Assembly (NCBI RefSeq): GCF_002752355.1
Contig: NZ_MRAV01000011.1
Location: 248,001 to 312,000 of the forward strand
DNA: 64,000 nt
Reading direction: 5' to 3'
Source: Leucobacter sp. OLIS6
GTDB taxonomy: Bacteria; Actinomycetota; Actinomycetes; Actinomycetales; Microbacteriaceae
In this document: positions 44,882-63,136 of the stretch, in pieces
Numbering within the stretch: position 1 is the first letter of the stretch
Layout of the letters: each line of letters opens with the position of its first letter
Made by a program: the position numbers and the translations under genes
Notes under the pieces: generated by a model
Seen by the model: the letters and a program-made list of their open reading frames with translations, nothing else
What the model was told of the DNA's origin: nothing
Database searches by the model: none

Positions 44882-47800
44882 TCAGCGCTCCGACACTGCG
44901 TGTCGCTGTTGCGCTCGAAGACGAGCACCCCACACGGTGAGTCCCGTGCCGAGCAGGATCATGACCGCGGCGAGCCATCCGATCTGCGGGGCGGAGGAGA
45001 CCCCGGTGACCGAGAGGTCGCTGGTGGCGCCGCGAGTCGAGGCGCCTCCCTCGTGCGGATCCGCGCCGGTACCGCCGCTCGCCGCGCCGGCTTGCGGATC
45101 GTGATCTCCCTCGGCCCCCGTCGTGGCCGTGGTGTTCGCCGTCGCGGACGCGGCTGACTTCGCCTTCGCTTCCGCCGTTCCGGCAGTGCCGGCCTTCGCC
45201 GCGGCACCCGCTCCGGCCGCCGAGTTCGCGGAGGCTCCGGCCTTCGTTCCGGCATCCGCACTCGCGCCGGCTCCGGCACCCGCACCCGCTCCGGGCCCGG
45301 AGGTCGGATCCGCCGCGGCGCTCGCCGCCGCCTGAGTGCCGCCCACCGATGCGGATCCCTGCTGGTCGCCGGTCCCCGCGGCGGCCGCGGAGGCGTCGGT
45401 CGAGGCGTTCGCGATGGCGGCCGCGCGGGCGGCGCTCGACGAGTCGCCGTTCGCGGTCGCCGTGCCCGCGGAGTTCGCGCCCGCCCCGACATCGGCGGAC
45501 GCCTGGGCGGCGGCCTGCGCGGAGGCGTTCGCGTGCGTCGACGCGTCGGCGGAGGCGGTGACCGCCCCGAGCGCCTGCGACGAGGCGTTCGCCTGCGACG
45601 CGAGGTCGGCGGCCCCGCGCGCTGCCGCTCGGGCGTCGGCGCTCGCCGCAGCGTCCGCGGAGGTGCTCTGATCCGCGTAGGCGGCGGCGCGCGCGGCGGC
45701 CTGCGCGCCCGCCCGGTTCGACCCGTCGGCGCTCGCGGACGCGGCGGCGGAGGCCGAGGCGTTCGCCAGGGCGCCCGCGTAGCCCGAGGCGGTGCTGGAG
45801 GCATCGCTCCGGGCCGCGGCCTGCGCGGACATGGATGCCTTGGCGAAGCCCTCGGCCGAAGCGGCGGCGTTCGCCGTGTCTCCGGCGTCCGCATCCGCCG
45901 CCGCGGTCGCGGCGGCCTGCGCGGCGGCTCCCGACCGGGCGGCCGCCGAGGCAGAGGCATCGACCGAGGCCCGCGCGAGCGCGGATCCCTGCGCTGCGGC
46001 CTTGGCCGAGGAGTCCGAGGCGGCGGAGGCCACCGAGGTCGCATCTCCGTACGCCGCCGACACTGCCGAGGCCTGGGCGGCGATCCGATGGTCGCCGTCC
46101 GCCTGTGCGGCGGCGGCGGCCGATGCCGAGGCGTTGGCGTTCGTATCGGAGTTCGCCCGGCTGAGCGCTTCCGACGAGGCGTCCGCTGCCGCGGTCGCCG
46201 TGGCATCGGTCGCGGCGGTGGCGGATGCCGTCGAGGACGCCGAGGCGATCGCCGCGGCTTCCGCCGACGTGTTCCCGCGGGCGTTCACCGCGATCGAAGC
46301 CGAGGCGTTCGCGGCGGCGGAGGCCTGGGAGTTCGCCGAGGCGATCGCCGCGGCGCGCGCCTGCGCGCTGGGTCCGGAGTCCGCGTTCGCCGAAGCCGTG
46401 GTCGATGCGTTCGCCCGTGCCGCGTTCCGTGCGGCGGCAGTCGCGTCGCCGTTCGCCGCCGCCGAGGCGGTGCTCTGCGCATTGGCGTACGCCGAGGCGA
46501 CGGCCGCGGCGACGGCGTCGGCCGTGCCGTTCCCGTCCGCGCGTGCCGAGGCCGCGGCCGATGCGGATGCGTTCGCGTTCGTGTCGGCGGAGGCGACCGA
46601 TGACGCCTGCGACGAAGCCATGTCCGTCGCCGAAGCCTGCGCAGCCGCGTTCTGCGCGGTCGTCGCCGTGGTCGAGGCGTTCTGCGAGGCGTCCGCCTGC
46701 ACCGAACCGGCCACCCGGGCCGCTGCCGAAGCGGTGGCGTCCGCGGCGGCCGAGCTGATGCTCGTCGCGTCCGCGAAGGCCGCGGCTTGCGCGGCGGCCC
46801 GAGCCCGGGCCTCGGCGGAGAGGTCGCCCTGCGCCGAAGCTGCGGCCGATGCCGCGGCGTTCGCGTCCGCGCGGGCGGCGGATCCTGCGGATGCGGAGGC
46901 ATCCGGGTCCGCGCTCGCGTCGGCCGTCGCGTCGGCGTCCGCTGCGGCCGATACCGAGGCCTCGCTCGATCCGTTGCTACTCGCAGCAGCGCGGGCCGCG
47001 GCCGCGGAGTTGCCTTCGCCGGCCACCGAGGCCGAGGCGCGGGAATCGCTCTTGGCGTCGCTCGTGCCTGCGGCGGTCGCGGCCGCCCGAGCGCTCGCGT
47101 TCGCCGTGCTCGTCGCGTCGGCGGACGCGTCGCTCGACGCGTCCGTGCTCGCCGCGGCCTGCGCCGCCGCTTCGGCGTCCGCTCGGGCGGCGGCCGAAGC
47201 GGACGCGTTGCTGTCCGCCCAGGCGGCGGACTGCGCCGCGGCCTGGGCGCCCGCCCGGTTGTCGCCGTCGGCTCGGGCCGAAGCCGCGGCGGATGCGGAG
47301 GCGTTGGAGTCCGCGGACGCGCGCGACGACGCCTGCGCGCTGGCATCCGCATCCGCCGCGGCGGACGCGGCGGATGCGGCATTGCCGTTGGCGTCGGCGG
47401 AGGATCCGGCTCGGGTCGCTGCGGTGCTGTCGGCGGATGCGCGCGCCGCGGCGAGGCCCGACGACCAGCCGGTGGCCGAAGCGTTGGCTGCTGCCTCGGC
47501 GGTCGCGGATCCGGCGGCGCGTGCGGCGGCCGACGCATCGACGGTCGCGGCGGCGTCGGCCGAGGTCGAGTTGTCGGCCATCGCAGCGGCCACGGCCGCG
47601 GCCTGGGCGGCCGCGTTGTTGTTGCCGTCGGCCATCGCCGATGCGGAGGCGGACGCGGCGGCGTTCCCGTTGTTCGGGCGGCACGCCTGCTGCGCGGTCA
47701 GCGAAGCGGCGTTGGTGGTGACGGTGCCCGAGCTGTTCGTGGCGCTGAGCCGGTACCGGGTGCCGGTCATACGGTTTTCGAAGTTCGCGGTGAAGGCGAG

Positions 47801-49564
47801 CCCGTCGCCCGACACCGTGCCCGTGGCGGGGACCCACTGGTCGCTGCCGGGCGCCTGCTGCTCCCAGCGGTACGCGGGCGCGGGGTACCCGTCGTAGTCG
47901 AGCTCGGCCCGGATCGTGAAGTCGGTCAGGCAGATGCCCTCGACGGTGTATGGGAGCTCGCGGAGGCCCGGCACGCCGAACACCTCGAACCCGCCGGGCA
48001 CCCGGTAGCTGTACTCCGCGAGCGCGGGAGGGGTCGGACTCACGCATCCGCCGTAGCCGTTCCCGTAGCAGTAGGTGCCGGCCTCGCGCCAGGTGATGGT
48101 GAGGTCCTTGCGGCCCGGCTTGCCGAGGTTCATCCCGTTCCAGCTGACCGATTGCGGTTCGACGCCGGAGATGTTCCACGCGGTGTCGCGGATCGGCAGC
48201 TCCTGCCCGTCGAAGAACATCTTGGCCGAGCGCAGGGGCTGCAGGAGCCGGGACGGATCCGGTGCGCCGGTGCTCCGGTCGCGCGCGAACACGTCGCCGT
48301 CCTCGGTGACCCAGAGCGCGCCGGCGGTTCCGCCGTTCCCTGTGGGGACGCTGTTCACGACGCTCGCGATCTTCACCGAGTCGGGGACGGCGAGCGGCTG
48401 CGGCGCGGCGACGCAGGTCCCGTCGGCCGAACGGCCCCAGGTCCACAGCTTGCCGGTGCTGTCGAGAGCCGCGGGGGTGTTGGCTCCTCCGAAGATCCGG
48501 GTGATGGTGACGCCGCTCAGCCCCGCGATGGGCGCTGCGCCGGCGGTGCCCGACGCCGATCCGTTGCCGAGCTCGCCGCAGTTCTGCGTGCCCCAGGAGT
48601 AGACCCGGCCGTCGTCGGTGAGCGCGAGCCGGTACTGGGAGTCGCCGGTGACGTCCGTGAACCGGACCCCGCTCGGTGCGGTGCGGGTCCAGGGGGCGGT
48701 GTCGGTCTGCTGCCAGACCGCGCCGTTCGCATCGATGAGGGAGCGGGCCGAGCCGAAGAGGGAGAGGCTGGAGCCGAGGCTTCGGACGGTCGCGCCGGCC
48801 GGGGCCGCGAGCGGAACGAGCGCCGGCTGGGTCGGCGGGGCGTCGTACGAGAGTCGTCCGCCGGGGTCGACGCCCGCGAGCGAGCCGTCCGAGAGCAGCA
48901 CCGTGCCCGGGGCGATGTCGCGCACCGAGACTCCGGATGGGAGCGGGACGGGACGGAACGTCATCGACCACCACGTGTTGCCGAGACTGTTCGCCCAGTA
49001 CCGATCCCGAGCCGAGTACCAGAGGCTGCCGTCGGATCCGAGCGCGAGGATCAGCTCCTCACTCCAGCGGGCGCTGACGCCGTACTCGACCCGTGCGCTC
49101 ATGCGCACCTTCGTGAAGCGCATGGCCGGGTCCGAGACCTCGGCGATGCGGTTGCTCTCGTACAGCCGGCCGTCGGCGCCCAGCAGCACGACGCGGCCCG
49201 AGGTGCCGCTGATCCCGGCCCAGATGTCGTCGACCTTGCTCGCGACGCCGTCCCGCATGGGGATCCGGAGGTCGGGGAGCCCGACGGTGAGATTCTGCCA
49301 GGTGAAGGCCTGCCCCTGCCGGGTGCTGAGCGTCGGCTCGTGCCCGGCGGGGGGTTGCGGCGGCGGCACGGGACCGGGCGCCGCCTGCGCCGGATCGGCC
49401 GCTCCCGCGAGCGATGCGAAGGCCAGCAGCCCGCCCGTGACGAGCACCGCGATCCCGTCCCGAAACGCCCGCCCGACGGACCGCCCGACGGGCCGTCGGG
49501 CCTCCGTCGGCCCGGTGCGCCGGATCCTTCTGTGCCTCGCGGCACCGAAGCTGCTCGCCCCCAT
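44882..49564 (-). CDS. Giant wall-anchored RCC1-like protein with Ala-rich stalk
   Basis: A 1560-residue surface protein. A signal peptide (GIAVLVTGGLLAFASLAGAA) is at about 37-60. Residues 80-460 look like an RCC1-type beta-propeller (RVYSWGTQNCGELGNGSASG, KLWTWGRSADG). An Ig-like domain at about 540-625 (APAYRWEQQAPGSDQWVPATG) follows. Residues 630-1510 are almost only Ala, Ser, Asp, Thr, Asn, Gly, Arg and Gln, in long imperfect repeats. The end is a sorting signal, LSVTG, with a hydrophobic helix and basic tail. It should be covalently linked to the wall by a sortase and hold the propeller away from the cell. The start at 49564 has AAGGGGGAA upstream. Divergent from a sigma-like fusion gene. 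Confidence 0.85.
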   Translation of the reverse strand: MGASSFGAARHRRIRRTGPTEARRPVGRSVGRAFRDGIAVLVTGGLLAFASLAGAADPAQAAPGPVPPPQPPAGHEPTLSTRQGQAFTWQNLTVGLPDLRIPMRDGVASKVDDIWAGISGTSGRVVLLGADGRLYESNRIAEVSDPAMRFTKVRMSARVEYGVSARWSEELILALGSDGSLWYSARDRYWANSLGNTWWSMTFRPVPLPSGVSVRDIAPGTVLLSDGSLAGVDPGGRLSYDAPPTQPALVPLAAPAGATVRSLGSSLSLFGSARSLIDANGAVWQQTDTAPWTRTAPSGVRFTDVTGDSQYRLALTDDGRVYSWGTQNCGELGNGSASGTAGAAPIAGLSGVTITRIFGGANTPAALDSTGKLWTWGRSADGTCVAAPQPLAVPDSVKIASVVNSVPTGNGGTAGALWVTEDGDVFARDRSTGAPDPSRLLQPLRSAKMFFDGQELPIRDTAWNISGVEPQSVSWNGMNLGKPGRKDLTITWREAGTYCYGNGYGGCVSPTPPALAEYSYRVPGGFEVFGVPGLRELPYTVEGICLTDFTIRAELDYDGYPAPAYRWEQQAPGSDQWVPATGTVSGDGLAFTANFENRMTGTRYRLSATNSSGTVTTNAASLTAQQACRPNNGNAAASASASAMADGNNNAAAQAAAVAAAMADNSTSADAAATVDASAAARAAGSATAEAAANASATGWSSGLAAARASADSTAATRAGSSADANGNAASAASAAADADASAQASSRASADSNASASAAASARADGDNRAGAQAAAQSAAWADSNASASAAARADAEAAAQAAASTDASSDASADATSTANASARAAATAAGTSDAKSDSRASASVAGEGNSAAAARAAASSNGSSEASVSAAADADATADASADPDASASAGSAARADANAAASAAASAQGDLSAEARARAAAQAAAFADATSISSAAADATASAAARVAGSVQADASQNASTTATTAQNAAAQASATDMASSQASSVASADTNANASASAAASARADGNGTADAVAAAVASAYANAQSTASAAANGDATAAARNAARANASTTASANADSGPSAQARAAAIASANSQASAAANASASIAVNARGNTSAEAAAIASASSTASATAATDATATAAADASSEALSRANSDTNANASASAAAAAQADGDHRIAAQASAVSAAYGDATSVASAASDSSAKAAAQGSALARASVDASASAAARSGAAAQAAATAAADADAGDTANAAASAEGFAKASMSAQAAARSDASSTASGYAGALANASASAAASASADGSNRAGAQAAARAAAYADQSTSADAAASADARAAARGAADLASQANASSQALGAVTASADASTHANASAQAAAQASADVGAGANSAGTATANGDSSSAARAAAIANASTDASAAAAGTGDQQGSASVGGTQAAASAAADPTSGPGAGAGAGAGASADAGTKAGASANSAAGAGAAAKAGTAGTAEAKAKSAASATANTTATTGAEGDHDPQAGAASGGTGADPHEGGASTRGATSDLSVTGVSSAPQIGWLAAVMILLGTGLTVWGARLRAQQRHAVSER
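45030..47675 (-). repeat. Ala-rich long-period repeat region of the stalk
   Basis: At least six copies of a pattern like ADGxxRAGAQAAAxAAAYADxSTSADAA recur at about 47600, 47230, 46830, 46510, 46100 and 45710, that is every 100-140 codons. Hydrophobic residues other than Ala are nearly absent. Reverse-strand frames stay open throughout because of the GC-rich Ala codons. Confidence 0.8.
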
Positions 49565-49769
49565 ACGTGTTCCCCCTTGCGATCGAGCACCGCCGGGCGG
49601 TTTCGCCCGATCGGTGTTCGTGGTCGATCCCCGGAAAACACCGGGTTCACCTATGAGAGACACCCAGGCGGCCCCAAAACCGTCGCTGATTGCACATTCC
49701 GGGCGTGTCGCGGCGACGATGCGGCGGTTGAAGCTTCATCAATTACGGTGAACACGTCGAAATCACGGC

Positions 49770-51158
49770 ATGTTGGGGTGGAAGTTGGACGAAGAAGTCT
49801 TGCTCGCACGCGCGTCACGAGGCGACCGTGCCGCCGCCGGCGCGTACCTGGCGCAGCATCTTCCGGCGCTGCACCGATCCGCGCGGCGGATCGCCGGCCG
49901 GCGGATGGATCCGGACGACCTGCTCGCCGACGCCGTCGAGGGGCTGCTCGTCAGGTGGGCGGACGGCGGCGAGGAGATCGCGTCGCCCCGCGGCTACATC
50001 CTGGCGTCGATGCGCAACCGGGTCATCAACGAGGCGCGCTCGCCGCGGTCGCGCAGCACCGGGCTCGGATTCGGGGTCGGGTTCGACCGGGACGACCCGA
50101 GCGCGCTCGGTACCGACGAGGCGATCGAGCTGGAGCGGGAGCTCACCTGGCTGCGCCTGGCGCTCGTTCGGCTCTCGGCGGCGCACCGGAGCGCGCTGCA
50201 GGACGGCGCGGTACCGACCGGCGAGCCGGTTGCCGGGGTTCCGGACGCGCGGGACGGCGACGGTCGGAGCGCCGATGCGCGGCAGTCCCTTCGGGCCCGT
50301 GCGCGTCGCGCGCTGCGTCGCGCGTACCTGCAGGTCGTATTGGAGGAGGGCGCGGCCCCGGACTGCCACGCCGCCATCGCGCGGCTGCCGACACGGGTCG
50401 GGGACGACGCGGACGCCACCGGCGATGCGCCCGAGCACTTCCGATCCTGCGAGCGCTGTCGGAGGCGCTGGCTCGTGTTCGCGAGCCTGGCGGGCGGGCT
50501 CGGCATCGCGGGTGCCATTGCCGTCCCGGCGGGCTCGGCGCCCGCGCAGGCCCACGCCCCCGGCTCCGCCGGAACCTTCGGAACCGTCGGCTCGGGCCGC
50601 GGGGCGGGCGCGGGCTCCGGAGGGATCATCGCCTCGGGCGCCGCGCTGATCGGGATCGGGATCCTCCTCGCGGCCGCGGCGTTCTTCCCGCAAGCGCTCC
50701 GTCCGTGGGCGGCTGAGGGGGAGCCCGCGCAGCTCGGGCACTCGGTGGATGCTGCGGGAAGCGGCGCCGGTGCGGCGGTGACGGCGAGCATGGGTCTGGC
50801 CGTGACGGGCGGGTCGGTCGCGGGGGACGGGGTCCAGGAGGTCACGATCCGGCTGACCTTCGACGTGGCGGGGAGCGACTGGTCGACGCACGAGCTCAGC
50901 TTCGACCTGCCGTCGGCCTTCGACGCCGTCAGCGCGTCGGACGGCTGGAACTGCGCGGGGCGCCGCTGCGCGCCCGCAATCGCCGATGCGCGCGAGGGGG
51001 TGTTCGCGATCCGCGGGCTGCCCGGCGGAGGCGACGAGCGGATCGGGGTGCGCTGGCGGGCGGAGGCTGCGGGCCGCAGCGTGACAGCGGACGCATCCAG
51101 CTCGGTGCCGCTCACGGGCGAGACCTTCACGACCTCGGCGCGCGACCGTGCGCGCTGA
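49770..51158 (+). CDS. Sigma-70 region 2 / zinc-motif / membrane fusion protein
   Basis: A 462-residue protein. Residues 8-92 form an ECF-like sigma region 2 (LLARASRGDRAAAGAYLAQH, DDLLADAVEGLLVRW, SPRGYILASMRNRVINEAR). The region where sigma 4 should lie (115-190) is helical and basic but has no clear helix-turn-helix. HFRSCERC at 223-230 fits the HxxxCxxC zinc motif of anti-sigma factors. Hydrophobic segments lie at 235-253 and 284-306, followed by a secreted-looking beta-rich domain (360-450). It may be a membrane-tethered sigma factor fused to its own anti-sigma domain. It is divergent from the giant stalk protein, its probable target. No good ribosome binding site precedes the ATG. Confidence 0.75.
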   Translation: MLGWKLDEEVLLARASRGDRAAAGAYLAQHLPALHRSARRIAGRRMDPDDLLADAVEGLLVRWADGGEEIASPRGYILASMRNRVINEARSPRSRSTGLGFGVGFDRDDPSALGTDEAIELERELTWLRLALVRLSAAHRSALQDGAVPTGEPVAGVPDARDGDGRSADARQSLRARARRALRRAYLQVVLEEGAAPDCHAAIARLPTRVGDDADATGDAPEHFRSCERCRRRWLVFASLAGGLGIAGAIAVPAGSAPAQAHAPGSAGTFGTVGSGRGAGAGSGGIIASGAALIGIGILLAAAAFFPQALRPWAAEGEPAQLGHSVDAAGSGAGAAVTASMGLAVTGGSVAGDGVQEVTIRLTFDVAGSDWSTHELSFDLPSAFDAVSASDGWNCAGRRCAPAIADAREGVFAIRGLPGGGDERIGVRWRAEAAGRSVTADASSSVPLTGETFTTSARDRAR

Positions 51159-51418
51159 CCATCGCCCGCGCGCTGCTGACGCGATTGCGACAGGAATCCC
51201 AGGACGAGCCAGACGAGCAGCACCAGGAAGACGATGCCGACCAGGAGCACGATCGCCCCCTCGCCGGTGCCGGCCGAACCGGTGGGGTTCGGGCGTCCGC
51301 TCTCGAGCAGGATGAAGATCCCGCCGAAGAGGCCGAGCGTCGCGAGCAGCGCGGAGAATCCGATCTGGACGGCCCAATAGCCGACGCCGGTGTACGTCCG
51401 GCTGGTTCCGGGGCGCAT
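49994..51418 (-). CDS. Small membrane protein whose frame lacks a nearby stop
   Basis: The start at 51418 is convincing: it overlaps the upstream lipoprotein stop (ATGA), and the first 85 residues contain two membrane helices (VQIGFSALLATLGLFGGIFI and GAIVLLVGIVFLVLLVWLVL). After about residue 87 (51158) the frame runs antisense to the sigma-fusion gene with no stop until 49994, and the translation there looks random. Either the true 3' end was lost by a frameshift or stop mutation, or the two genes truly overlap. The functional part is probably only 51159-51418. The function is unknown. Confidence 0.45.
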   Translation of the reverse strand: MRPGTSRTYTGVGYWAVQIGFSALLATLGLFGGIFILLESGRPNPTGSAGTGEGAIVLLVGIVFLVLLVWLVLGFLSQSRQQRAGDGQRARSRAEVVKVSPVSGTELDASAVTLRPAASARQRTPIRSSPPPGSPRIANTPSRASAIAGAQRRPAQFQPSDALTASKADGRSKLSSCVDQSLPATSKVSRIVTSWTPSPATDPPVTARPMLAVTAAPAPLPAASTECPSCAGSPSAAHGRSACGKNAAAARRIPIPISAAPEAMIPPEPAPAPRPEPTVPKVPAEPGAWACAGAEPAGTAMAPAMPSPPARLANTSQRLRQRSQDRKCSGASPVASASSPTRVGSRAMAAWQSGAAPSSNTTCRYARRSARRARARRDCRASALRPSPSRASGTPATGSPVGTAPSCSALRCAAESRTSARRSQVSSRSSSIASSVPSALGSSRSNPTPNPSPVLRDRGERASLMTRLRIDARM

Positions 51419-52080
51419 CAGGGATCCAGCGGCGCGATGTGCACGCTCACGAAGCGGCGGGGCTCGGGATCCCACTTGCACGACATTCCGAGCCAGACCC
51501 GGAGCCCGGTGGCCGTCCCCTCCGGGGTGAAGTAGCCGAGGGTATTGCAGGTCGCCCGGGGATCATCCGCGTACGCCGTGAGCCAGGTATGGAGTCCCTC
51601 GTTCTCGGCGCCCGCGAGCGAGGCGAAGTCCCGCACCAGCGACAGGAACTGCTCGTCGGTCTCTGCGCCGGCGGTCAGCCAGAGTTCGCCGATCTCGTCG
51701 GAGCCTTCGGCGACGTAGGGGAAGATCCGCTCGCTCGACACTCGGATCGTCGTGTTCGGCGTCCGCACGGACACCTGGATCGGGTGCGAACGGTCCCTCG
51801 CGCTGACGGCGTTCGCGAAGTCCCCCGGGCCGGTGAGCCCCACGCTCCGGAGCAGGAGCCTGCCGCTGCTCCAATCGAAGGTCGCGGCGCCGGTGCGTGC
51901 GATCTCCTTCGCGCCGGCATCGCTCAGGGACGCGTTGCCTCGGGCCCCGTCGGTCGGACCGGTCGGCCCGACTTTCGACACGCTCCAGCCGAAGCAGCCC
52001 GCGAGCCCGAGGGTCGCGATCAGCGCGATCGCTGCGGCGGCGGCAGTGAAGCTCGCTCGTGTGCTCGCGCTCGGGCTCAT
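51418..52080 (-). CDS. Lipoprotein of unknown function
   Basis: A 220-residue predicted lipoprotein with the lipobox LAGC (Cys near residue 29). The mature part is rich in beta strands (VSVRTPNTTIRVSSERIFPY, GELWLTAGAETDEQFLSLVR) and has cysteines at RATCNTLGYF and LGMSCKWDPE that could form a disulfide. No domain is recognised. It is co-translated with the downstream small membrane protein by an ATGA overlap; the pair faces the sigma-fusion gene. Confidence 0.75.
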   Translation of the reverse strand: MSPSASTRASFTAAAAAIALIATLGLAGCFGWSVSKVGPTGPTDGARGNASLSDAGAKEIARTGAATFDWSSGRLLLRSVGLTGPGDFANAVSARDRSHPIQVSVRTPNTTIRVSSERIFPYVAEGSDEIGELWLTAGAETDEQFLSLVRDFASLAGAENEGLHTWLTAYADDPRATCNTLGYFTPEGTATGLRVWLGMSCKWDPEPRRFVSVHIAPLDP

Positions 52081-52248: not shown

Positions 52249-52689
52249 TCAGCTTCGTAGGTCGATGGACTCCATGATCCGCCCCAGGAGGCCCTTCAAC
52301 TGCTCGAGCTCGTCCGGCCCGAGGCCGGTCAGGGACGCCAGTTTCTGGGGAACCGGTTTCAGCTCCTCTCGCAGCCGGAGGCCCTCGGGCGTGGCCGATA
52401 CCAGAACCTTCCGCTCGTCCTCGGTCGAACGCCGTCGGGCCACCCGCCCCGAACCCTCCAGCCGCTTCAGCACGGGCGTCAGGGTTCCGCTGTCCGATCG
52501 GAGGCGTTCCCCGAGCTCACCCACCGTGAGCGGCTGCTCCGCCTGCCAGAGCACCAGCATCACCAGGTACTGCGGATAGGTCAGTCCCGACTCCGAGAGG
52601 AGCTCACCGTACGCCTGGGTCACGGCTCGTGAAGCAGCATGCAGCGGGAAGCAGATCTGGGCCTCGAGGTCGAGGGGGTCGATGGACAT
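52249..52689 (-). CDS. ohrR: MarR family organic peroxide sensor
   Basis: A 146-residue MarR-family repressor of the OhrR type. The reactive cysteine is in the N-terminal QICFPLHAASRAV motif, followed by tyrosines (AYGELL, TYPQYLVML) that hydrogen-bond to it. The winged helix contains TVGELGERLRSDSGTLTPVLKRLE and RRRSTEDERKV. Oxidation of the Cys by organic hydroperoxides releases DNA. It is divergent from ohr across 50 bases with a palindromic operator. Confidence 0.95.
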   Translation of the reverse strand: MSIDPLDLEAQICFPLHAASRAVTQAYGELLSESGLTYPQYLVMLVLWQAEQPLTVGELGERLRSDSGTLTPVLKRLEGSGRVARRRSTEDERKVLVSATPEGLRLREELKPVPQKLASLTGLGPDELEQLKGLLGRIMESIDLRS

Positions 52690-52715
52690 GTCTCAAGTCT
52701 AGCTTGCGTCATTCA

Positions 52716-52727
52716 ATTGTGCACAAT
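52716..52727. promoter_or_regulatory. OhrR operator
   Basis: ATTGTGCACAAT is a perfect 12-bp palindrome in the ohrR-ohr intergenic region. It ends at the T of a TAGAGT -10 candidate (52727-52732) that is seven bases before the ohr ATG, so binding would block ohr. Confidence 0.75.
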
Positions 52728-52739
52728 AGAGTCGTGCTC

Positions 52740-53162
52740 ATGACAAATTCTGCTCTCTACACCGCAACCGCTGCCGCCTACGGGGACGGCCGGAACGGCC
52801 AGGTCCAGTCCTCGGACGGCGTGCTCGACGTCCCGGTCCGAATGCCGAAGGAGCTCGGCGGTCCCGGCGGTGCCACCAACCCCGAGCAGCTGTTCGCCGC
52901 GGGATACGCCGCGTGCTTCCACTCCGCGCTCAAGCTCGTCGCGGGCCAGGAGAAGCTCGACGCGGGCGACTCCGAAGTCGTCGCGGATGTCTCCCTGCTG
53001 TCCGCGCCGGATGGCGGATACCGGCTCGCGGTCGGCCTCGAGATCACCGCTCCTGCTCTGTCGAGGGACGTCGCCGAGCGTCTGGTGGCGAAGGCGCACC
53101 AGGTGTGCCCGTATTCCCATGCGACTCGCGGCAACATCGAGGTCGCTCTCACGGTGGCGTGA
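52740..53162 (+). CDS. ohr: Organic hydroperoxide resistance protein (OsmC/Ohr)
   Basis: A 140-residue thiol peroxidase of the Ohr subfamily. The two active-site cysteines are in GYAACFHSALKL and HQVCPYSHATRGN, and the catalytic Arg is in the N-terminal part. It reduces organic hydroperoxides, including lipid peroxides, using lipoyl- or thiol-based donors. The ATG at 52740 is likely leaderless. It is under OhrR control and is followed one base later by the DUF1304 gene. Confidence 0.96.
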   Translation: MTNSALYTATAAAYGDGRNGQVQSSDGVLDVPVRMPKELGGPGGATNPEQLFAAGYAACFHSALKLVAGQEKLDAGDSEVVADVSLLSAPDGGYRLAVGLEITAPALSRDVAERLVAKAHQVCPYSHATRGNIEVALTVA

Positions 53163-53163
53163 C

Positions 53164-55195: not shown

Positions 55196-55262
55196 CCATA
55201 GACCGGAATGTTATGGACGCATTCGGGGGTTGTTGATCGTGTCACCTACGAAAGGACACCTC

Positions 55263-56108
55263 ATGACCATCCTCGTCACCGGAGCCACCGGCCAGCTCGG
55301 TCGCCTGATCGTCGAGAGCCTGCTCGCGCGCGGCGCATCGGCGGACCAGATCATCGCCGGAGCACGCGACGTCTCGAAGGCCGCCGACCTCGGTGTCCGC
55401 GCCGTGCACCTCGACTACACCGATGCCGCCTCGATCGCCGCTGCGCTCGAGGGCGTCGATACGGTCATGCTCGTGTCGGGGTCGGAGGTGGGCCAGCGTG
55501 TCGCGCAGCACCGCGCCGTGATCGACGCCGCGGCCGCCGCCGGAGTGACGAAGTTCGTGTACACCAGCGCCCCCAAGGCCACCACGAGCGATCTCGTGCT
55601 CGCCCCCGAGCACAAGGCCACCGAGGAGGCCATCGTCGCCTCCGGCCTGCCCGCCGTGATCCTGCGCAACAACTGGTACACCGAGAACTACCTGGGCGAC
55701 CTCGCCACGGCCGCCCAGACCGGAGTCCTGTCGGCCGGTGCCGGGGACGGGCGCGTCGCGTCGGCGAGCCGCAAGGACTTCGCGGATGCTGCCGCCGTTG
55801 TGCTGCTCGAAGACGGCCACATCGGCGAGGTGTATGAGCTGGCCGGCGACGTCGCCTGGAACTACTCCGACCTCGCTGCCGCGTTCGCGGAGGTCCTCGG
55901 CCGCGAAGTGACTTACGCGCCGCTGAGCTTCGACGAGCAGGTCTCCGCCCTGCGCTCCTTCGGCCTCGACGAAGGCACCGCCGGCTTCGTGGCGGCCCTC
56001 GACGCGGGCATCCGCGACGGCGCGCTCGCCGACACCGACGGCACCCTCGCCCGCCTGATCGGTCGCCCCACCACCCCGCTGGTCGAGGGACTCCGCGCGG
56101 GAGCCTGA
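55263..56108 (+). CDS. NmrA/QorB-like NAD(P)H-binding reductase
   Basis: A 281-residue short-chain-dehydrogenase-type protein of the NmrA/quinone reductase 2 (QorB) branch. The dinucleotide loop is TGATGQLGRLIVESLL; LGVRAVHLDYTDAASIAAAL, FVYTSAPKA and LRNNWYTENYL are typical of QorB proteins. It is predicted to reduce quinones with NADPH. It is divergent from the HxlR regulator, as in the qorR-qorA arrangement, and is followed by a strong hairpin. GAAAGGA precedes the ATG. Confidence 0.9.
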   Translation: MTILVTGATGQLGRLIVESLLARGASADQIIAGARDVSKAADLGVRAVHLDYTDAASIAAALEGVDTVMLVSGSEVGQRVAQHRAVIDAAAAAGVTKFVYTSAPKATTSDLVLAPEHKATEEAIVASGLPAVILRNNWYTENYLGDLATAAQTGVLSAGAGDGRVASASRKDFADAAAVVLLEDGHIGEVYELAGDVAWNYSDLAAAFAEVLGREVTYAPLSFDEQVSALRSFGLDEGTAGFVAALDAGIRDGALADTDGTLARLIGRPTTPLVEGLRAGA

Positions 56109-56168
56109 CACCTCGGCCCCTGAAAACGGCCGCACTGAGGCTCGAAGAAGACGTGATCATGCCAGGAA

Positions 56169-56216
56169 AACGCCTGAGGCCCTCGACTCCGAACGGAATC
56201 GAGGGCCTCAGGCGTT
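56169..56216. terminator. Terminator hairpin, near copy of the one at 54624
   Basis: AACGCCTGAGGCCCTCGA (56169-56186) pairs with TCGAGGGCCTCAGGCGTT (56199-56216), and four inner pairs extend the stem after one mismatch. The outer 14 bases of each arm equal those of the hairpin at 54624-54673. Confidence 0.85.
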
Positions 56217-56691
56217 GGTGGTGGAGTGCTTGCAAGATTTCCGGAAGCCTTGTCTCGCAAGGGGGAGGGCGCTGTGGAACGAAACCTGCGTTTCCCGGCT
56301 AAAGCCATGAGCTCTCCCGGGCCTCTGCCCGGAGTGATGCGCGGTGCCAGGACGCCGCGTCCACGTCGGGCGTGCGTGCGGTCAGCATTCGTGCAAGAGA
56401 GATCCAGGGTTTTGAGGGACCCGCAGGAGCGAGCAGTCGGGGACGGCGGGTCTGCCCTGAGCGTGATCGATATCTGATCTGTGAGCATTCATCCTCGCTG
56501 GAGGGATATCACTTAGGCATGTAACCAGCCTTTGGCTTTCATCATGTCGAGACAGCGTTGCCCACCTGCCTGAGGGCGTGTCAATGCAAGGTGTGGAGAG
56601 CGGTGACCAGCAGAGGCGAGTGTGGCACCCCAAATCTGTCGAAGGGCGTGATCCTTATCCCATGTGCTCGCAACACCCCAGAGAAGAGTAA
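56217..56691. other. Gene-free stretch
   Basis: No convincing gene is seen here. Short frames exist on both strands, but they lack ribosome binding sites and recognisable motifs. Base composition becomes more AT-rich toward 56500, which marks the change to the pilus-associated region. Confidence 0.5.
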
Positions 56692-58461
56692 CTATGGGGT
56701 TGGAGCGAGCCTCCAAACACGATACGGGCCTGTTGAAGTGTCGCCTTGCCAGAAACGGACATTGCCTAAGGATGTCCTCGAGTAGGGGACAACCGCGATT
56801 ACTTCGTTAGAAGCGTCGGGCGTTCGCTTGGTGACCAGCGGACCAAGTATCGAGGACCGGGCGTTTCCTCTCTGATTCTTCGAAAGAGGGCCGAAACCGG
56901 TGATCTTGATCGTTGACTCATTTGGTGCGGTCGCGGTAATGGTCATCCGGAGGCCATCTCCGACCTGAAACGTGCCGAGTGTGGTGGACCCCTCAACATA
57001 TTGGGCTCCATCCCTTTGGTACGTTTGTGAGGCGGTCACCGTAAGAGTGCCGCGCAGGGCGCTTGGCGTGTACTGCCAGGTGCCGTCGGATGCGACCGGG
57101 ATTTGAGCGGTGGCTTGTTCGCCGAGGTCGTTTGCCACGGTCAGTGCGACTGTGCCTCCTGCGACGCCGGTCCCGACGAGACGGGGATAGACCCCAACTT
57201 CGACACCGTCTGCCGGGGCTGCGGTCAACGTGGACGGAACACGGATCGGGGACGCTGGTGCGGGTGACGGCCTTGGGTGCGGGGTAGAGGGCGACGTCGG
57301 CGTTGGAAGGGGTACCTGCTCCTCGGGGGTTTTGGGGGTCGGAGGAAGGGCTCCATAGCCGGCGGATGATGTCGAAGTCGGTGGTGTGACCTTTGATGCG
57401 ACCTGAGGTTTCCTGGCTAAGCCTGATCCATCGCTTTCGGTGGCGGAAGTGGCTGTAGACGTTTCTGACTCTGAACCCAGTAATGTGGTTGGGGGCGCCT
57501 GCTGAGTATCGGGGACATCGGCCAGCGTCATGAAGGCGTACGCCCCACCTATCGATCCTGCGAGCACTGCCGCGGTAGGGATTAACCCGAGCTTCACGAC
57601 CCTTGCTGCTCTTCCTGGTGGTCCAGATATGCGCGGCTGGCCGATCCCCTCATTCGCCTTATCTGACCGTATCCACTCCAGATATGCTGCGCCGGAGGTG
57701 CTTCCTAAGAAGGCGGGGAGTAGGACGAGTGCCAGTCTGGACTGCAGTACTTCGGATTCTTCTACGACTATTGCGCAGCGTGGGCAGGCTCCTAAATGGA
57801 ATTCGAGCTTCTTGCGAATCGAAGCGGTGGACTTTCCTCGAATGTAACGCGGGAGGCGTTCGATTACCCATCGGCAGTCCGGATCGAGTCCGCCAGTTGG
57901 TGAGAGGTTCGCTGCGATCCACGCCTGTTTGAATCCTTCACGAGCGCGCTTGAGGAGCGCGCTCGTGCCGTTCTCACTCATCCCCAAGTAGGCGCAGAAC
58001 ACCTGGACGGGAAGGTCTTCGACCTCTCGGTACCAGAGCGCCTCCTGCCAGCGGATTGGGAGAGAGCGAAACACTGAGAGTGTGAAGCTGCTCTCAAGGA
58101 ACCGCGGAGCAAAATCATCTTGCGGTTGGCTGAACGCCTCGAGCATCTCGTCGGACGCTCCGGTGATGTCGTCGCTCCCCCGTTGCCGCGCCATATTGGC
58201 AGCGACGTTCCTGGCGGTCATGATCGCGTATGCCCTGAACGCGGTGGCGGGCCCCTGCCCCGCCTGGAGCCTGCGCAAGATGCGATAGAAGGTCTCTTGT
58301 GTCACGTCATCTGGGTCGAAGCCGGTGAAGGAGCGCGCGGCGGCGGAAACTGCACCAGCGTGGCGCTTCCAGAGCTCTCCGAACGCATCTTGGTCACCCC
58401 CTCTGACCATGTTCACTAGCGCCATGTCCGCCTCATCTGCGAAACGCGAACTGTTTTTCAT
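56692..58461 (-). CDS. Sigma-70 / anti-sigma zinc motif / membrane / ectodomain fusion
   Basis: A 589-residue protein. Sigma region 2 spans about 15-95 (GGDQDAFGELWKRHAGAVSA, DVTQETFYRILRRL, YAIMTARNVAANMARQRG); sigma region 4 spans 128-182 with an intact helix-turn-helix (SLPIRWQEALWYREVEDLPV, MSENGTSALLKRAREGFKQAW). C196 and HLGACPRC at 222-229 give the zinc motif of anti-sigma factors. A hydrophobic helix at 289-312 is followed by a Ser/Thr/Pro linker and Ig-like domains (about 425-589). It appears to be a membrane-held sigma factor joined to its own anti-sigma and sensor domains. It lies next to the pilus genes, divergently. GGAGATGG precedes the ATG. Confidence 0.83.
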   Translation of the reverse strand: MKNSSRFADEADMALVNMVRGGDQDAFGELWKRHAGAVSAAARSFTGFDPDDVTQETFYRILRRLQAGQGPATAFRAYAIMTARNVAANMARQRGSDDITGASDEMLEAFSQPQDDFAPRFLESSFTLSVFRSLPIRWQEALWYREVEDLPVQVFCAYLGMSENGTSALLKRAREGFKQAWIAANLSPTGGLDPDCRWVIERLPRYIRGKSTASIRKKLEFHLGACPRCAIVVEESEVLQSRLALVLLPAFLGSTSGAAYLEWIRSDKANEGIGQPRISGPPGRAARVVKLGLIPTAAVLAGSIGGAYAFMTLADVPDTQQAPPTTLLGSESETSTATSATESDGSGLARKPQVASKVTPPTSTSSAGYGALPPTPKTPEEQVPLPTPTSPSTPHPRPSPAPASPIRVPSTLTAAPADGVEVGVYPRLVGTGVAGGTVALTVANDLGEQATAQIPVASDGTWQYTPSALRGTLTVTASQTYQRDGAQYVEGSTTLGTFQVGDGLRMTITATAPNESTIKITGFGPLSKNQRGNARSSILGPLVTKRTPDASNEVIAVVPYSRTSLGNVRFWQGDTSTGPYRVWRLAPTP

Positions 58462-59605
58462 GCGTCCATCTCCCCCTCGTGCCAGGTGACGCCACGGCGT
58501 TGTGACTCCTCCGTAAAATCAACCAAGCGATTGAATCCTCAAGCTTCTAAGACACCGCGGCGGGGTGAAATCTGACGCGGGCGAGAAAGCTCGAAGCTGC
58601 TGGGGCTCGCGTCAGATCATGTGGCCGTAGGGGGTCTTAGTCGGTGCAGATGGTCAGCTTCATCCCCCTAGCGCGGCTGGCCGGTCTGCGAGGGTCGATG
58701 AGGATCTTGAACTGCACACCTCGGAGGCCTCCGCCGGGACACCCGCCCCCTCGGGATGTCCCGGCGGTCCCTCGTTCTTGAAGGTCCCTCTTCGCAGCTC
58801 TGCGCCCGGCGTCGTGTGAAGACGGAGCCCCGTCTTTGGCCGGGTCAGCGGTGCTATTGCACAGGTTGGGTCCGTCCGCCTCCCGACCAAGCGTGACTGC
58901 TTGTAGGGGCAGAAGTATCCCAACGCGTTGTGGAGTCTTTGCTCGGTGGTGGGAGGCGCGCAGAACCAGGCGGCATGTGCAGTCCGCAAGTAAGAAGACG
59001 CCTCAACTGCGTATGTTTCGACCTCAGGTTTGGCGGTCCCGAGCGCTCTGCTGTGATCGGGGCGTATCAGCGCGGCCTTACCCGAGCCTGGGCCCGGGGC
59101 GCTCTGCGCTGGGTGTGTCCTTGCTGCCGCCCCGGAGCGCATTCATGCTCAGTAGCCCAGGAGTCACCGCGGTGTCGGAAGCGCCCACACCCTTGCCTGG
59201 CGGCTGGCGATCGGCGCGGCAGTTCGGGCTCAGGCTGCTCACTGGCCTCGATTCAAGAGCGGGCCACCCTCCAGCGGTGGCAACACAGCAACGGCTCATC
59301 ATCGCGAGCACTGGACCTGTTCGGCGGGTGCAAGGGGTTGAAAGAAACTTCTCGGTGGCGCGTCAGATGCACCCCGGAGGACGTGTCTATACCTTCGACG
59401 CTACTCGTGGGCCGATATCGAAGATGAGTCCAGGGTTGCGAATGCATGGTGCCAGCTGAAGGTGCTTGCTTGCGATATCTGGGCCCGCCCACTGAGCAGA
59501 AATGCGACTGAAGATGATGAAGATTTCACCTAATGCGATGAAAATGCGGCGCGGCGCGTTTTCTGTCGAGTTCAGTTTAGGTCCGCGTGAAGTTGGGGGA
59601 ACGGC
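58462..59605. other. Gene-free stretch between sigma fusion and pilus genes
   Basis: About 1.1 kb without a convincing gene. It holds a hairpin (CCGCCGGGACA 58731-58741 with TGTCCCGGCGG 58757-58767), a possible insertion-sequence remnant at 58897-58950, and an AT-rich segment (59460-59600) where the promoters of the sigma fusion and adhesin genes might lie, although no strong -10/-35 pair stands out. Confidence 0.5.
58897..58950 (-). pseudogene. Possible IS3-type transposase C-terminal remnant
   Basis: The minus-strand reading TTEQRLHNALGYFCPYKQ resembles the RxHSALGYxxP block near the end of IS3-family transposases. No other transposase motif is readable around it, so this would be a decayed fragment. 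A chance match is possible. Confidence 0.25.
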
Positions 59606-62600
59606 ATGAATCGTTGGCTCGCAGGTTTCAGGCAAGGGAGAGCCCGTCGGGCCACTCCTCGAGCGGGCTCGTGTCCCCGCCTGCGGAAGTTGGGACGCGC
59701 GATTCTCGCGTCCGGTCTGTCGCTCGGCGTGGTCCTCACGGGGTTCGTGCTGCCGTCGGCCGCGAACGCAGTGACGACGGTGTACGAGATCGAAGGCAAC
59801 TGGGCGGCGGGGACACCGGATCCGGTCAAATCCGGAACCGGGCTGACCGCGGTCTGGCGATACAACATCAACGATGCGGACCCTGCTCCGCTGAATCCGC
59901 CGCAGGACAACGTGACGATCACGTTCACCGCTCAGCACGCGGTGTTCACCGAGCTGCCCTCCGTGTGCCTCACCTCGGGCGTGACTCCGGCTTCTTCGAT
60001 TCAGGACAATGGTGCGACCCTCGTGTGCAATCTCGGTACTCGAGACCTCGGCACCGCAGAACTGCTGCTCGCGGGTGTTGAGGCGAAGGGCAGCACCGGG
60101 GATAAGGTCTCCGTCTCCGCGTCAATCGGCACGCCCGGTCTCAACCAGGCGACGGCCACTCTTCCCCAGCTGTCCATCACGAACCCGTTCGCGATGGACA
60201 TGAAGTTCGACGGTGGCACGCCGGGGCAGACGCTGGACGGCACGCAGAATGTGCTTACCTTCCCCTGGTCGCTCCGTCATGCTCCGGGCTCCACCGCGGG
60301 GCCGAACTCGGTCAGCTACACTCTGAGTTTTTCTTCGAGTGGTGGCGAGACGGTGGTGCCGTCGGTATCGGGCTGCAGTGCACAGGACGCCAGGAACCCC
60401 GGATACCCCTATTCGGGGAGCGGGTTCGCCGCGAATCAGACCGCGCCGTTCCCGACGACCTGCACGCTCGTGCAGACGGCTCCGAATGTGTTCCGCTTGA
60501 CGTTGACCGGAATTGACTACTCCAAGACCTTGGATCCGACGGTGGACTCGTCGGGCACTGCCCTGCCAACGGATTGGGATGTGGTGGCTGCGGGCAAGAT
60601 CTCCGTGCGCTTCACCTATGTGAATCAGACCACCGTCTCGTTCACCTCGAACGCTCCGACATACACCTCGACCAGCGGTGAGACGAGTGTCGACATCGCC
60701 TCGAACAACAGCAACTCTCGGGCCTCGACGCGCGGCACCTGGACGGGCGGCTGGTCACTCAGTAACCAGGTGCGGCCCGTGGAGGGAACGATCTGGACCG
60801 ATACCTATCGGACGATGGCGGGACAGCCGGCGCTCGCCGTATCGGGCGTTCGACCGCCGCAGGGAGCAGAGGCCAGCACGCAGGTCTGCACGATCCTGGA
60901 CACGAAGTACGTCACGTTCAACTCCTCGAAAGCGGGCACCATCTCCGGGGGCGTGGTCACCCCGTACCCGGGCGTCATCTACGAGTACTTCACGGGCACG
61001 GGCACCAATGGCATCGCCGATCCGAATAGTGCGAACTACAATCCGAACAGCTTCAAGTGCGACGGTTCGACTGGAACCACCTGGTCGTCGACGCTCCCGA
61101 GCGATCTCTCGACGGTGAAGGCGATCCGGGCGACGTTCCCCGCCTCGGCCAACATCCCGGACGCGGTCGCGCGTATGTATACGTCCACGACCATCAAGCC
61201 GAGCACGCCGGTCGGTACGGATGTCTGGACCTGGACGAGTTACAAGATGGGCGCGAATGCCTGGGTTGATCCGCATCGCACGATGAACGCGGGCGACGTG
61301 CCCCTTTCGGGAACGCTCACTCCGAATTCGCGCTACCCCTACACCGGGGGCGGACGTGACGTGCTCCGCATCGTGGCTGGAACGCCGCACGTGACGAAAG
61401 CCGTGGACCAGAAGATCACCATGCCAGGCGCGACCGTGAACTTCACGCTCAGCTACCGGGTCGACGCTCCGGTGAACACGACGGTCAACAACCTGAAACT
61501 CTCGGACCTGCTTCCCGCGGGCCTCACCTACGTCCCGGGCAGCGCGAGTGTCGCCCCGACGAGCGTCAGCGGGCAGACGCTGAACTGGACGATCAACAAC
61601 GTGTCGACCAACACCGACTACACGATCCTGCTCAGCGCGGTGGTCGATTCCTCGGCCGCGCCGGGGACCGTCTTCACGAACACCGTGAACATCGATCTCG
61701 ACGGGTCCAAGGGGTCCGCCACGGCGAGCACCAGCGTGCGCGACGGCGGATACACCTTCATCACGAAGACCGCCGACAACCAGCAGGTGCCGCATGTCAA
61801 CGGGACGGCGCAGGACGGATGGACGGTGCGTCTCACCTCGGCCGACTCCGTCGCGCAGACCTTCACCGACACGGTCGACATCCTGCCCTACAACGGCGAC
61901 GGTCGCGGAACGAGCTTCTCCGGCTCCTACCAGTTGTCCGGACCGGTAACCGCAGTCGCGGGGGCGACGGTCTACTACACGACCGCGAGTCCGGCGACGC
62001 TCAAGGACGACCCGGCGGATCCCTCGAACGGCTCCGCCGGGAGCATCACCGGGAACACCGTCGGGTGGTCGACGACGTTCAACGCCAACGCGACCGCGGT
62101 CCGCGTCATCGGGCCGTCGCTCGCAGCAGGCGCGACCCAGTCCTTCAGGGTCAACGTGAAGACCACCGGGGCGAAGTTCGACGACATCTACGTGAACCGC
62201 GCCGAGGCGCGCGCGTCGCGCACGAAGCTGACGATGCGGACCTCGAGCTGGTTCCAGATCGCCGCGGTCGATTCGCTCACGATCAAGAAGTACGTCCAGG
62301 ATGCTGACGGGAACTGGCACGACGCGCAGAACGTCGACGACTATCCCTCGTTCCACACCGGCGACACGGCGAAGTACCGGCTCGTCGTGACCAACACCGG
62401 CGATCAGACGCTCACGAATGTGAAGGTGACCGACGACAAGGTCGACCTCGCAGCGTTGAATCCGCTGCCCGCGGGTCTCAGCGCGGGGGCCGTGATTCCC
62501 GAGCTGAAGCCGGGCGCGAGCAACGCGGTCACTATCGAATACGATGTGCTGCTCACCGGTCACGCAGCGGGGTCCCACCTCATCAACAATGCATGCGCAA

Positions 62601-63136
62601 CTCCCTCGGACACGAAGGTCGACCCCTCGTGCGATCCGGCCGGACTCATCATCCTTCCGTCTTCGCTCGCCTGGGAGAAGGTGAACTCCGCCACTCCGCA
62701 GAAGCACCTGGCGGGCTCCGAATGGGAGCTCGTGAAAGTCGACAGCAGCCAGAATCCGGCCGGGACGCCGATTCAGGTGATGGACTGCGTCGCGGCGAAC
62801 GCGTCGAGCTGCACTGGTCCGGACAAGGATCCAGCCGCCGGCAAGTTCTTGATCAACAACCTGCCAGATGGCAATTATCGGCTTACTGAGACGAAGGCGC
62901 CGGCCGGTTACGTGCTCGACGTTCAGCCGCACTACATCACCGTGCAGGGGGTGACGGCATTTGCGTCCCCCATCACGAACGAGCAGCACGTCGGTCCTGC
63001 GATGCCGCTTTCGGGTGGTGTGGGCACCTTCGGGATCTTCGTCGGCGCCGGCACCCTTGGCGGGCTCGCGGTGTTGCTGGTCCTGCTGCGTCGGCGCCGC
63101 CTGCGCGACTCCTTCGAAGGAAAGATCCTCGCATGA
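59606..63136 (+). CDS. Large sortase-anchored pilus adhesin (DUF11 and Cna-B domains)
   Basis: A 1176-residue surface protein. An extended signal peptide (ILASGLSLGVVLTGFVLPSA) ends near residue 55. The first 580 residues are beta-rich without a recognised domain. DUF11-type repeats lie at about 594-700 (VTKAVDQKITMPGATVNFTL, LSDLLPAGLTYVPGSA) and 887-1000 (YRLVVTNTGDQTLTNVKVTD). A Cna-B/SpaA domain follows at 1021-1125 (HLAGSEWELVKVD, LPDGNYRLTETKAP with the E-box Glu). It ends with MPLSGG, a hydrophobic helix and RRRRLR. It is probably the tip or minor pilin of a sortase-built pilus whose shaft gene follows. GGGGGA precedes the ATG. Confidence 0.9.
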   Translation: MNRWLAGFRQGRARRATPRAGSCPRLRKLGRAILASGLSLGVVLTGFVLPSAANAVTTVYEIEGNWAAGTPDPVKSGTGLTAVWRYNINDADPAPLNPPQDNVTITFTAQHAVFTELPSVCLTSGVTPASSIQDNGATLVCNLGTRDLGTAELLLAGVEAKGSTGDKVSVSASIGTPGLNQATATLPQLSITNPFAMDMKFDGGTPGQTLDGTQNVLTFPWSLRHAPGSTAGPNSVSYTLSFSSSGGETVVPSVSGCSAQDARNPGYPYSGSGFAANQTAPFPTTCTLVQTAPNVFRLTLTGIDYSKTLDPTVDSSGTALPTDWDVVAAGKISVRFTYVNQTTVSFTSNAPTYTSTSGETSVDIASNNSNSRASTRGTWTGGWSLSNQVRPVEGTIWTDTYRTMAGQPALAVSGVRPPQGAEASTQVCTILDTKYVTFNSSKAGTISGGVVTPYPGVIYEYFTGTGTNGIADPNSANYNPNSFKCDGSTGTTWSSTLPSDLSTVKAIRATFPASANIPDAVARMYTSTTIKPSTPVGTDVWTWTSYKMGANAWVDPHRTMNAGDVPLSGTLTPNSRYPYTGGGRDVLRIVAGTPHVTKAVDQKITMPGATVNFTLSYRVDAPVNTTVNNLKLSDLLPAGLTYVPGSASVAPTSVSGQTLNWTINNVSTNTDYTILLSAVVDSSAAPGTVFTNTVNIDLDGSKGSATASTSVRDGGYTFITKTADNQQVPHVNGTAQDGWTVRLTSADSVAQTFTDTVDILPYNGDGRGTSFSGSYQLSGPVTAVAGATVYYTTASPATLKDDPADPSNGSAGSITGNTVGWSTTFNANATAVRVIGPSLAAGATQSFRVNVKTTGAKFDDIYVNRAEARASRTKLTMRTSSWFQIAAVDSLTIKKYVQDADGNWHDAQNVDDYPSFHTGDTAKYRLVVTNTGDQTLTNVKVTDDKVDLAALNPLPAGLSAGAVIPELKPGASNAVTIEYDVLLTGHAAGSHLINNACATPSDTKVDPSCDPAGLIILPSSLAWEKVNSATPQKHLAGSEWELVKVDSSQNPAGTPIQVMDCVAANASSCTGPDKDPAAGKFLINNLPDGNYRLTETKAPAGYVLDVQPHYITVQGVTAFASPITNEQHVGPAMPLSGGVGTFGIFVGAGTLGGLAVLLVLLRRRRLRDSFEGKILA

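Follow-up and report, generated by a model that had tools for sequence, protein, structure and literature searches.

The window analysed here is a 64,000-nucleotide stretch of contig NZ_MRAV01000011.1 of Leucobacter sp. OLIS6, whose genome is 3.33 Mb in 22 contigs. It encodes two proteins, designated fusion A and fusion B, that each combine a sigma factor, an anti-sigma-type zinc site, hydrophobic segments and an ectodomain on one chain, and that each lie beside genes for surface proteins with sortase-type sorting signals. Within Leucobacter, most fusions of this kind have such a sorting-signal gene close by, clade-specific promoter-like sites are found before fusion and surface genes, and one clade of fusions has captured the C-terminal domain of the major pilin together with a sorting signal. 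We propose, with a probability of about 0.7, that each fusion is a one-protein membrane sensor and activator that is mostly dedicated to its adjoining surface locus.

The part order given in a sequence-only reading of the window is borne out for both proteins by Pfam and, for fusion B, NCBIfam sigma matches, by the zinc site and by the hydrophobic segments. These segments follow the zinc site in a hydropathy scan and are the predicted membrane part of the fusions. In fusion B, Sigma70_r2 (35.2 bits) and the NCBIfam sigma70-ECF (extracytoplasmic function) model (51.3 bits) are above their cut-offs, and Sigma70_r4_2 (16.7 bits) is under the Pfam cut-off. Fusion A matches Sigma70_r2 above the cut-off (33.2 bits) and gives no Pfam detection of region 4. 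A model of fusion B built from an 18-sequence alignment (mean predicted local distance difference test [pLDDT] 62, predicted template modelling score 0.32) matches the sigmaE/RseA (expect value [E] 3e-5) and SigW/RsiW (E 9e-4) structures. The ectodomain model gives weak matches to beta-sandwich domains: an adhesin repeat (E 0.002), CBM56 (E ≥0.014 in Foldseek, alongside other beta domains) and fibronectin-III-like domains. The Pfam domain Big_13 scores 16.9 bits in the same region, under its cut-off. The single-sequence model of fusion A failed (pLDDT 39, uninformative), and its sigma fold therefore rests on sequence. The HxxxCxxC motif and two ectodomain cysteines are invariant in an alignment of fusion A with six relatives. 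The guanine-plus-cytosine (GC) content of fusion B is 0.60, whereas the window as a whole has 0.70, and a codon-based gene caller missed the gene; this hints at its recent arrival.

The neighbours named in the sequence-only reading are confirmed. The gene for a 1560-residue stalk protein with RCC1 repeats is divergent from fusion A, and the adhesin gene is divergent from fusion B, in the order adhesin, pilin and class C sortase, the last just outside the window. A scan for RCC1 neighbours covered the window and loci L019/L014, L314, L318 and L319; they were detected by Pfam at all of these except L319, where the assignment was made by eye.

Table 1. Positions of the principal features in the window
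Feature	Position	Strand	Description
RCC1 surface protein	44882..49564	-	1560 amino acids (aa); RCC1 repeats (Pfam), long Ala/Ser-rich stretch, LSVTG-type sorting signal
Clade-A site	49656..49711	-	GCGACACGCCCGGA-N35-TGTCTCT; conserved, directed at RCC1 surface gene
Fusion A	49770..51158	+	462 aa; sigma region 2, degenerate region 4, HxxxCxxC, hydrophobic segments, ectodomain
Fusion B	56692..58461	-	589 aa; ECF sigma, zf-HC2, hydrophobic segments, Pro/Ser/Thr-rich linker, beta-rich ectodomain
Fusion B zf-HC2 zinc motif	57772..57876	-	residues 196-230; PF13490, 27.4 bits, above cut-off
Clade-B promoter-like site	58550..58579	-	CGCGTCAGAT-N16-GTCT; toward fusion B, nearest end about 89 base pairs (bp) before its start
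Second clade-B site	58608..58637	+	toward adhesin
Third clade-B site	59359..59388	+	about 218 bp 5' of adhesin start
Pilus adhesin	59606..63136	+	1176 aa; SpaA and DUF11 domains; MPLSG, hydrophobic stretch and basic tail at C-terminus
Major pilin, SpaH/EbpB family	63187..64000	+	start within window, runs past its end

Two fusions had been recognized initially; both are real, but the count was too low, as this genome has at least eight: six places matched by fusion B and two by fusion A, each number including the query itself (a further, uncounted fusion A match is weak at 16 bits). The eight have 15 invariant columns in common, among them the H, C and C of the zinc site, and seven of them have a sorting-signal gene within one gene, L011 being the exception. 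Pfam identifies three sortases in the genome, two of class C (in two pilus clusters) and one of class E. Across the genus, relatives of fusion B were sought in 54 genomes and found in 46 (E ≤1e-10), with a maximum of 17 matches in one genome, and fusion A has matches in 10 of the 54 (E ≤1e-8), some of which belong to other clades. In the genome with 17 matches (G051, L106-L121), 14 of the 17 intact fusions have a sorting-signal gene within three genes.

Neighbouring genes were examined at every match in 26 further genomes of the genus, all those listed with ≤10 contigs (the threshold is as listed; the contig counts behind it are apparently rounded). Matches were present in 23 of these, giving 75 regions, which together with the loci of the window's own genome make 92 fusion places in 24 genomes (L007, a duplicate of the window locus, is excluded from the counts). 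A fusion was considered intact if it had the zinc motif and a hydrophobic segment by hydropathy scan; nine places failed and were dropped, leaving 83. The gene caller was simple and gave long sorting-signal genes a score bonus at every position; fusions were forced into the calls because it missed codon-atypical genes. Since the loose sorting-signal rule also accepts motifs that belong to some sortases (LAAAG, IAAAG) or are doubtful (APPTG, AAPAG, IVKAG), we also applied a strict rule, under which the motif begins with L, I, V, M or F and ends in TG and the protein has at least 250 residues.

A sorting-signal gene lies within one gene of 58/83 intact fusions, within two of 68/83 and within three of 71/83 (strict rule: 55/83, 65/83 and 68/83), a set that contains the near-duplicate loci L055/L057 and L063/L084 and tandem fusions with neighbours in common. 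The rates fall with distance, both upstream (35/83 at -1, 15/80 at -2, 6/75 at -3, 5/63 at -4, 1/50 at -5 and 4/37 at -6) and downstream (24/82 at +1, 14/81 at +2, 6/78 at +3, 1/68 at +4, 0/56 at +5 and 2/47 at +6). Of the surface genes that immediately adjoin a fusion, 21 follow it in the same direction, 19 lie upstream of it and diverge, 16 lie upstream in the same direction and three lie downstream and converge on it. The control consisted of 36 regions around sigma genes from seven genus genomes. Family matches in 27 of these regions comprise 28 open reading frames, of which four are fusions and 24 are non-fusion, the latter including L205, L222 and L238 (432-551 aa), which were classed as such because the zinc motif was not found. 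Only 3/24 non-fusion sigma genes (2/24 strict) have a sorting-signal gene within three genes, one of them adjoining a fusion locus, in contrast to 71/83 fusions (Fisher p 4.7e-11; strict, 68/83 versus 2/24, p 4.6e-11). All four of the extra fusions met in the control regions have one within three genes. The nine control regions without a family match yielded eight callable centre genes, none with a sorting-signal gene within three genes, and one that was uncallable.

Alignment of clade-B upstream regions revealed a bipartite promoter-like site, CGCGTCAGAT-N16-GTCT. It occurs 11 times in 1.448 Mb of locus sequence, every time at a clade-B locus. The 54 whole genomes contain 13 exact sites, only at clade-B loci (the window's genome has three, and G003, G004, G007, G015 and G030 have two apiece), compared to none for the reversed control. 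The three sites in the window compare with 0.07 expected from shuffled sequences with one mismatch permitted. In G053, a variant of the site is common to fusion and adhesin. A second pilus clade has the site YGCGTCACAT-N15-CTCT, found exactly 11 times in 11 genomes, one per genome (control, 0), each of which holds a relative of the second-clade fusion. It stands before the adhesin gene in 8/11 genomes; in G027 it adjoins the fusion, with no surface gene called there. In G000, the genome of the window, the exact N15 site (G000:C1:63501-63529) is at the 3' end of the pilus sortase gene, an arrangement kept in G016, and in both genomes an N14 form precedes the adhesin gene.

Further sites of this type are found at other loci. 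At L008, in the window's own genome, CGCGTCACTTT-N16-CTCT lies approximately 100 bp before the called start of each of two genes, those of the fusion and of the surface protein. Three clade-A loci have GCGACACGCCCGGA and TGTYTCT in common in their divergent regions, oriented toward an RCC1 surface gene. This pattern gives three sites in the 54 genomes; because it was derived from those same three loci, the search shows only that there are no further sites. A targeted test for motifs shared between fusion and surface gene, in a form picked after the clade-B and second-clade sites were known, found 3/88 pairs (L008, L075 and L122) against a shuffle mean of 0.12, with 0/300 shuffles reaching three; it missed the window because the gene caller had misplaced the start of fusion B. 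Local control is supported by the occurrence of such clade-specific, promoter-like sequences upstream of fusion genes and of surface genes.

In one clade, the fusion itself includes part of the pilin. Pilin-capture fusions are present in nine genomes of two genera: seven of the 54 Leucobacter genomes and two genomes of the genus g51, found in a 299-genome family sample in which only four candidates per genome were scored. A 394-genome class sample, with three candidates scored per genome, gave 45 genomes with a match and no further pilin capture. In these pilus-linked fusions, approximately 200 residues following the membrane segment match the major pilin in its C-terminal domain; at the five loci compared, identity to the cluster's own pilin is 48-53% and E values are 7e-55 to 6e-67. 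A stretch resembling an E-box is retained in 9/9, and in the alignment all nine end with L[ASV]xTG followed by hydrophobic residues and then a basic region (a script flagged seven of the nine). The aligned pilins have an LP[LM]TG sorting signal in 10/10 and a YPK pilin motif in 10/10. None of the nine fusions has YPK in its aligned part, so that such a protein could end or anchor a chain and not extend it as a backbone pilin.

Profile searches agree with these assignments. The NCBIfam scan covered two of the nine. In the L099 fusion, the SpaH/EbpB pilin model scores 84 bits (E 8.9e-24; cut-off 95) and both ECF sigma and LPXTG_anchor are above their cut-offs; in L060, the pilin (under cut-off) and ECF sigma models match, and LPXTG_anchor is not among the 25 of 33 matches listed. 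Pfam SpaA exceeds its cut-off in L342 and L343 but falls short of it in the remaining seven. L093, the only pilin-capture fusion searched against the PDB, matches fimbrial subunits (3qdh, E 5e-13). As the nine form a single clade (support 0.996), a single capture, retained in both genera, probably accounts for them. The gene order in g51 is fusion, pilin and then a 264-337-aa gene in the sortase position, and CGCGTCACAT-N13-CTCT precedes the pilin. The pilin domain and sorting signal predict that the sigma factor of the pilin-capture clade is a sortase substrate in its own right. Relatives without the pilin domain (L012 of the window's own genome, L346, L349, L347, L348, L094 and L104) end in LYFGDW[TS]xW in 7/7 examined.

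A general likeness between ectodomains and neighbouring surface proteins was considered and rejected: 5/100 same-locus pairs match (E ≤0.01), all five involving pilin-capture fusions. Ectodomains matched sorting-signal proteins from other loci in 60/7340 pairs, and all but one of the best cross-locus pairs listed are a pilin-capture ectodomain against a pilin. The earlier suggestion that the ectodomain reports on pilus state gains a sequence argument from the pilin-capture clade, whereas apart from five loci of that clade the sorting-signal proteins encoded at a locus were matched by none of its ectodomains.

In the mechanism that we propose, the zinc anti-sigma module would restrain the N-terminal ECF sigma of the same chain on the cytoplasmic side and keep it inactive, as the domain order and work on ECF52 proteins suggest, and the ectodomain would sense the state of the wall or of a surface structure. 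A signal would free the sigma, most likely through regulated proteolysis, and the freed sigma would then transcribe its own gene and the adjoining adhesin, pilin or stalk genes from a paralogue-specific promoter. In the pilin-capture clade, the sensor would probably compete as, or be processed as, a sortase substrate, in which case pilus or wall assembly would feed back on transcription. A more specific form of this idea, which we hold tentatively and at somewhat less than even odds, is that the pilin-like ectodomain is joined covalently to the wall or pilus by a sortase, so that one chain would run from cytoplasm to wall and either the state of assembly or tension on that bond would govern the freeing of the sigma for the pilus genes; other clades, including those of B and A, would be the same kind of sensor with other ectodomains.

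Several results weigh against dedicated local control. Region 4 of fusion A is a degenerate helix-turn-helix with four more residues than in its six relatives, and for that reason the protein may bind promoters poorly. Twelve of the 83 intact genus fusions, including L011 of the window's own genome, have no sorting-signal gene within three genes. The clade-B fusions of G022 and G053 lack an exact clade-B site, as the second-clade carriers G006, G011 and G048 lack an exact second-clade site. At L055 (9853-9882), L057 (7874-7903) and L061 (9899-9928), one clade-B site points away from the fusion, antisense to the 3' end of the adhesin gene, and by coordinates one site beside the fusion in G030 is also directed away from it. 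The unbiased within-locus test for shared motifs is weak, with 33/88 pairs against a shuffle mean of 22.4 and maximum of 33. Outside the genus, the best 80 of 162 relatives in named genomes (Agromyces, Leifsonia, Microbacterium, Subtercola and others) gave 78 loci with 79 intact fusions, of which 12, four of them from Leucobacter, have a sorting-signal gene within three genes; the non-Leucobacter rate is 8/75 (strict 5/75). As these relatives were picked by likeness to clade B, other fusion copies in those genera went unseen. A class-wide sample of 12 loci, nearly the best-scoring, fetched from 44 other genomes matched, had 0/12 coupled. Coupling as a general property of the wider family was not found in these two samples.

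The cis pairing put forward in the sequence-only reading is strongly supported within Leucobacter by the neighbour counts, and most of the homologues sampled beyond it are without surface neighbours, the outcome that it had named as refuting. In a tree of 174 sequences (L126-L128 excluded), the 75 named outside sequences and one Leucobacter fusion (L123) form a group with support of 0.92, beside the Leucobacter B clade (joint node, 0.89). Since most sampled homologues outside Leucobacter lack surface neighbours, the coupling appears to be a development within Leucobacter, in which a more widespread architecture is put to a lineage-specific use, with one clade common to genus g51. The observation made from the sequence is confirmed, and its surface-sensing interpretation is partly supported.

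These same homologues would be expected if the fusions were general envelope-stress regulators of the ECF52 type with scattered regulons, brought near surface genes by shared variable genomic islands, and the low GC content of fusion B is also what island genes may show. We consider this improbable: the exact clade-B site is found nowhere else in 54 genomes, the second-clade site is restricted to genomes holding that fusion, pilin capture binds one clade to its own gene cluster, and the non-fusion sigma genes of seven genus genomes cluster little with sorting-signal genes. The conserved sites could instead bind another regulator, with the fusion having no direct role at them. That sites can point away from the fusion agrees with this suggestion. 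It is improbable in our judgement, given that the site variant shifts with the fusion clade and that the bipartite form, 13-16 bp spacing and GTC/CTC elements resemble ECF promoters such as the ECF41 motif TGTCACA-N16-CGTC (PMC3426412).

For the pilin-like fusions in particular, an accidental gene fusion that supplied a second anchor, without any sortase role, has also to be weighed. The LP of the pilin signal reads L[ASV] in 9/9, so that the pilus sortase may not cut these proteins, and the lack of YPK in the aligned part of all nine points the same way. We regard an accident as rather unlikely, because the E-box-like stretch, the sorting signal and the following basic region have been kept in nine genomes of two genera. 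LAxTG, moreover, is the class E sortase signal in the accessible text of PMC5148588, and the window's genome has one such sortase; this argument is limited in that the same genome has no pilin-capture fusion and that only 4/9 fusions read LAxTG, the others having LSxTG or LVxTG, which match class E less clearly.

Our preferred reading, a sensor-activator dedicated to the adjoining locus, builds on an architecture that is already known from ECF48, ECF52 and ECF53 proteins. According to the accessible text of PMC5826349 and PMC8999054, the ECF52 protein SCO4117 of Streptomyces coelicolor has a C-terminal zinc finger (pfam13490), a transmembrane part and a proline-rich extension with a carbohydrate-binding module; it is pleiotropic, is the sole ECF52 member in its genome and has the motif CSGYN-17-SRHA. 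Release of the sigma by proteolysis has been proposed, and SCO4117 truncated to remove the zinc finger, transmembrane part and binding module raises expression of its own gene (PMC5826349, PMC8999054). The proposal of proteolytic release after a surface signal fits the Leucobacter fusions by analogy. They have the same actinobacterial layout of sigma, zinc finger, membrane and proline-rich parts, seen also in ECF48 and ECF53, but a single Leucobacter genome can hold as many as 17 matches, the ectodomains are of several kinds, the targets are probably local and in cis, and the motifs differ from that of SCO4117. Compared part by part with ECF52, fusion B has the sigma (region 4 weak) and the zinc domain (zf-HC2), and fusion A has half of the sigma (region 2 only) and HxxxCxxC alone; the membrane and proline-rich parts correspond to the predicted hydrophobic segments and, in the translation of B, a Pro-rich linker. 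No Pfam carbohydrate-binding module was found in A or B, and the Foldseek matches of B to CBM56 are weak.

The extension of ECF41 proteins is a SnoaL-type domain without a membrane part, and no such domain is among the Pfam matches of A or B. As is proposed for the Leucobacter fusions, ECF41 proteins have their target gene close by, and a promoter specific to the group, TGTCACA-N16-CGTC, precedes this gene and often the sigma gene too (PMC3426412). IutY of Pseudomonas putida (ECF243) has a sigma factor and a membrane anti-sigma on one chain and is freed by Prc and RseP; it serves Gram-negative iron cell-surface signalling, and the accessible text of PMC8999054 mentions no sortase-substrate neighbour or domain. 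The grouping of adhesin, SpaH/EbpB pilin and class C sortase is that of SpaA-type pilus clusters. Among the papers listed in the literature searches, which left most subscription papers and all bioRxiv preprints outside, we found no sigma-anti-sigma fusion beside or inside such clusters, and none that describes a sigma fusion in company with a sortase locus or with a pilin domain. To the known architecture the Leucobacter fusions would add control dedicated to an adjoining locus and, in one clade, a sensor built from a portion of the product that it probably controls.

Elsewhere in the window, the protein encoded at 43953-44978 carries a C-terminal nuclease-like domain of the GmrSD type (74 bits), and at 52249-53162 a gene for a MarR-type regulator is divergent from its neighbour, presumably a gene for an OsmC/Ohr-like peroxide-resistance protein.

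To our knowledge, little is understood of the way in which Gram-positive cells adjust the supply of pilin to its assembly by sortases. The fusions place regulator, sensor and, in one clade, predicted sortase substrate on one polypeptide beside the pilus genes, and because the promoter-like site is also nearly unique in the genome, a feedback from assembly to transcription can be tested directly. The paralogues would, in addition, make several candidate orthogonal sigma-promoter pairs available within one genus.

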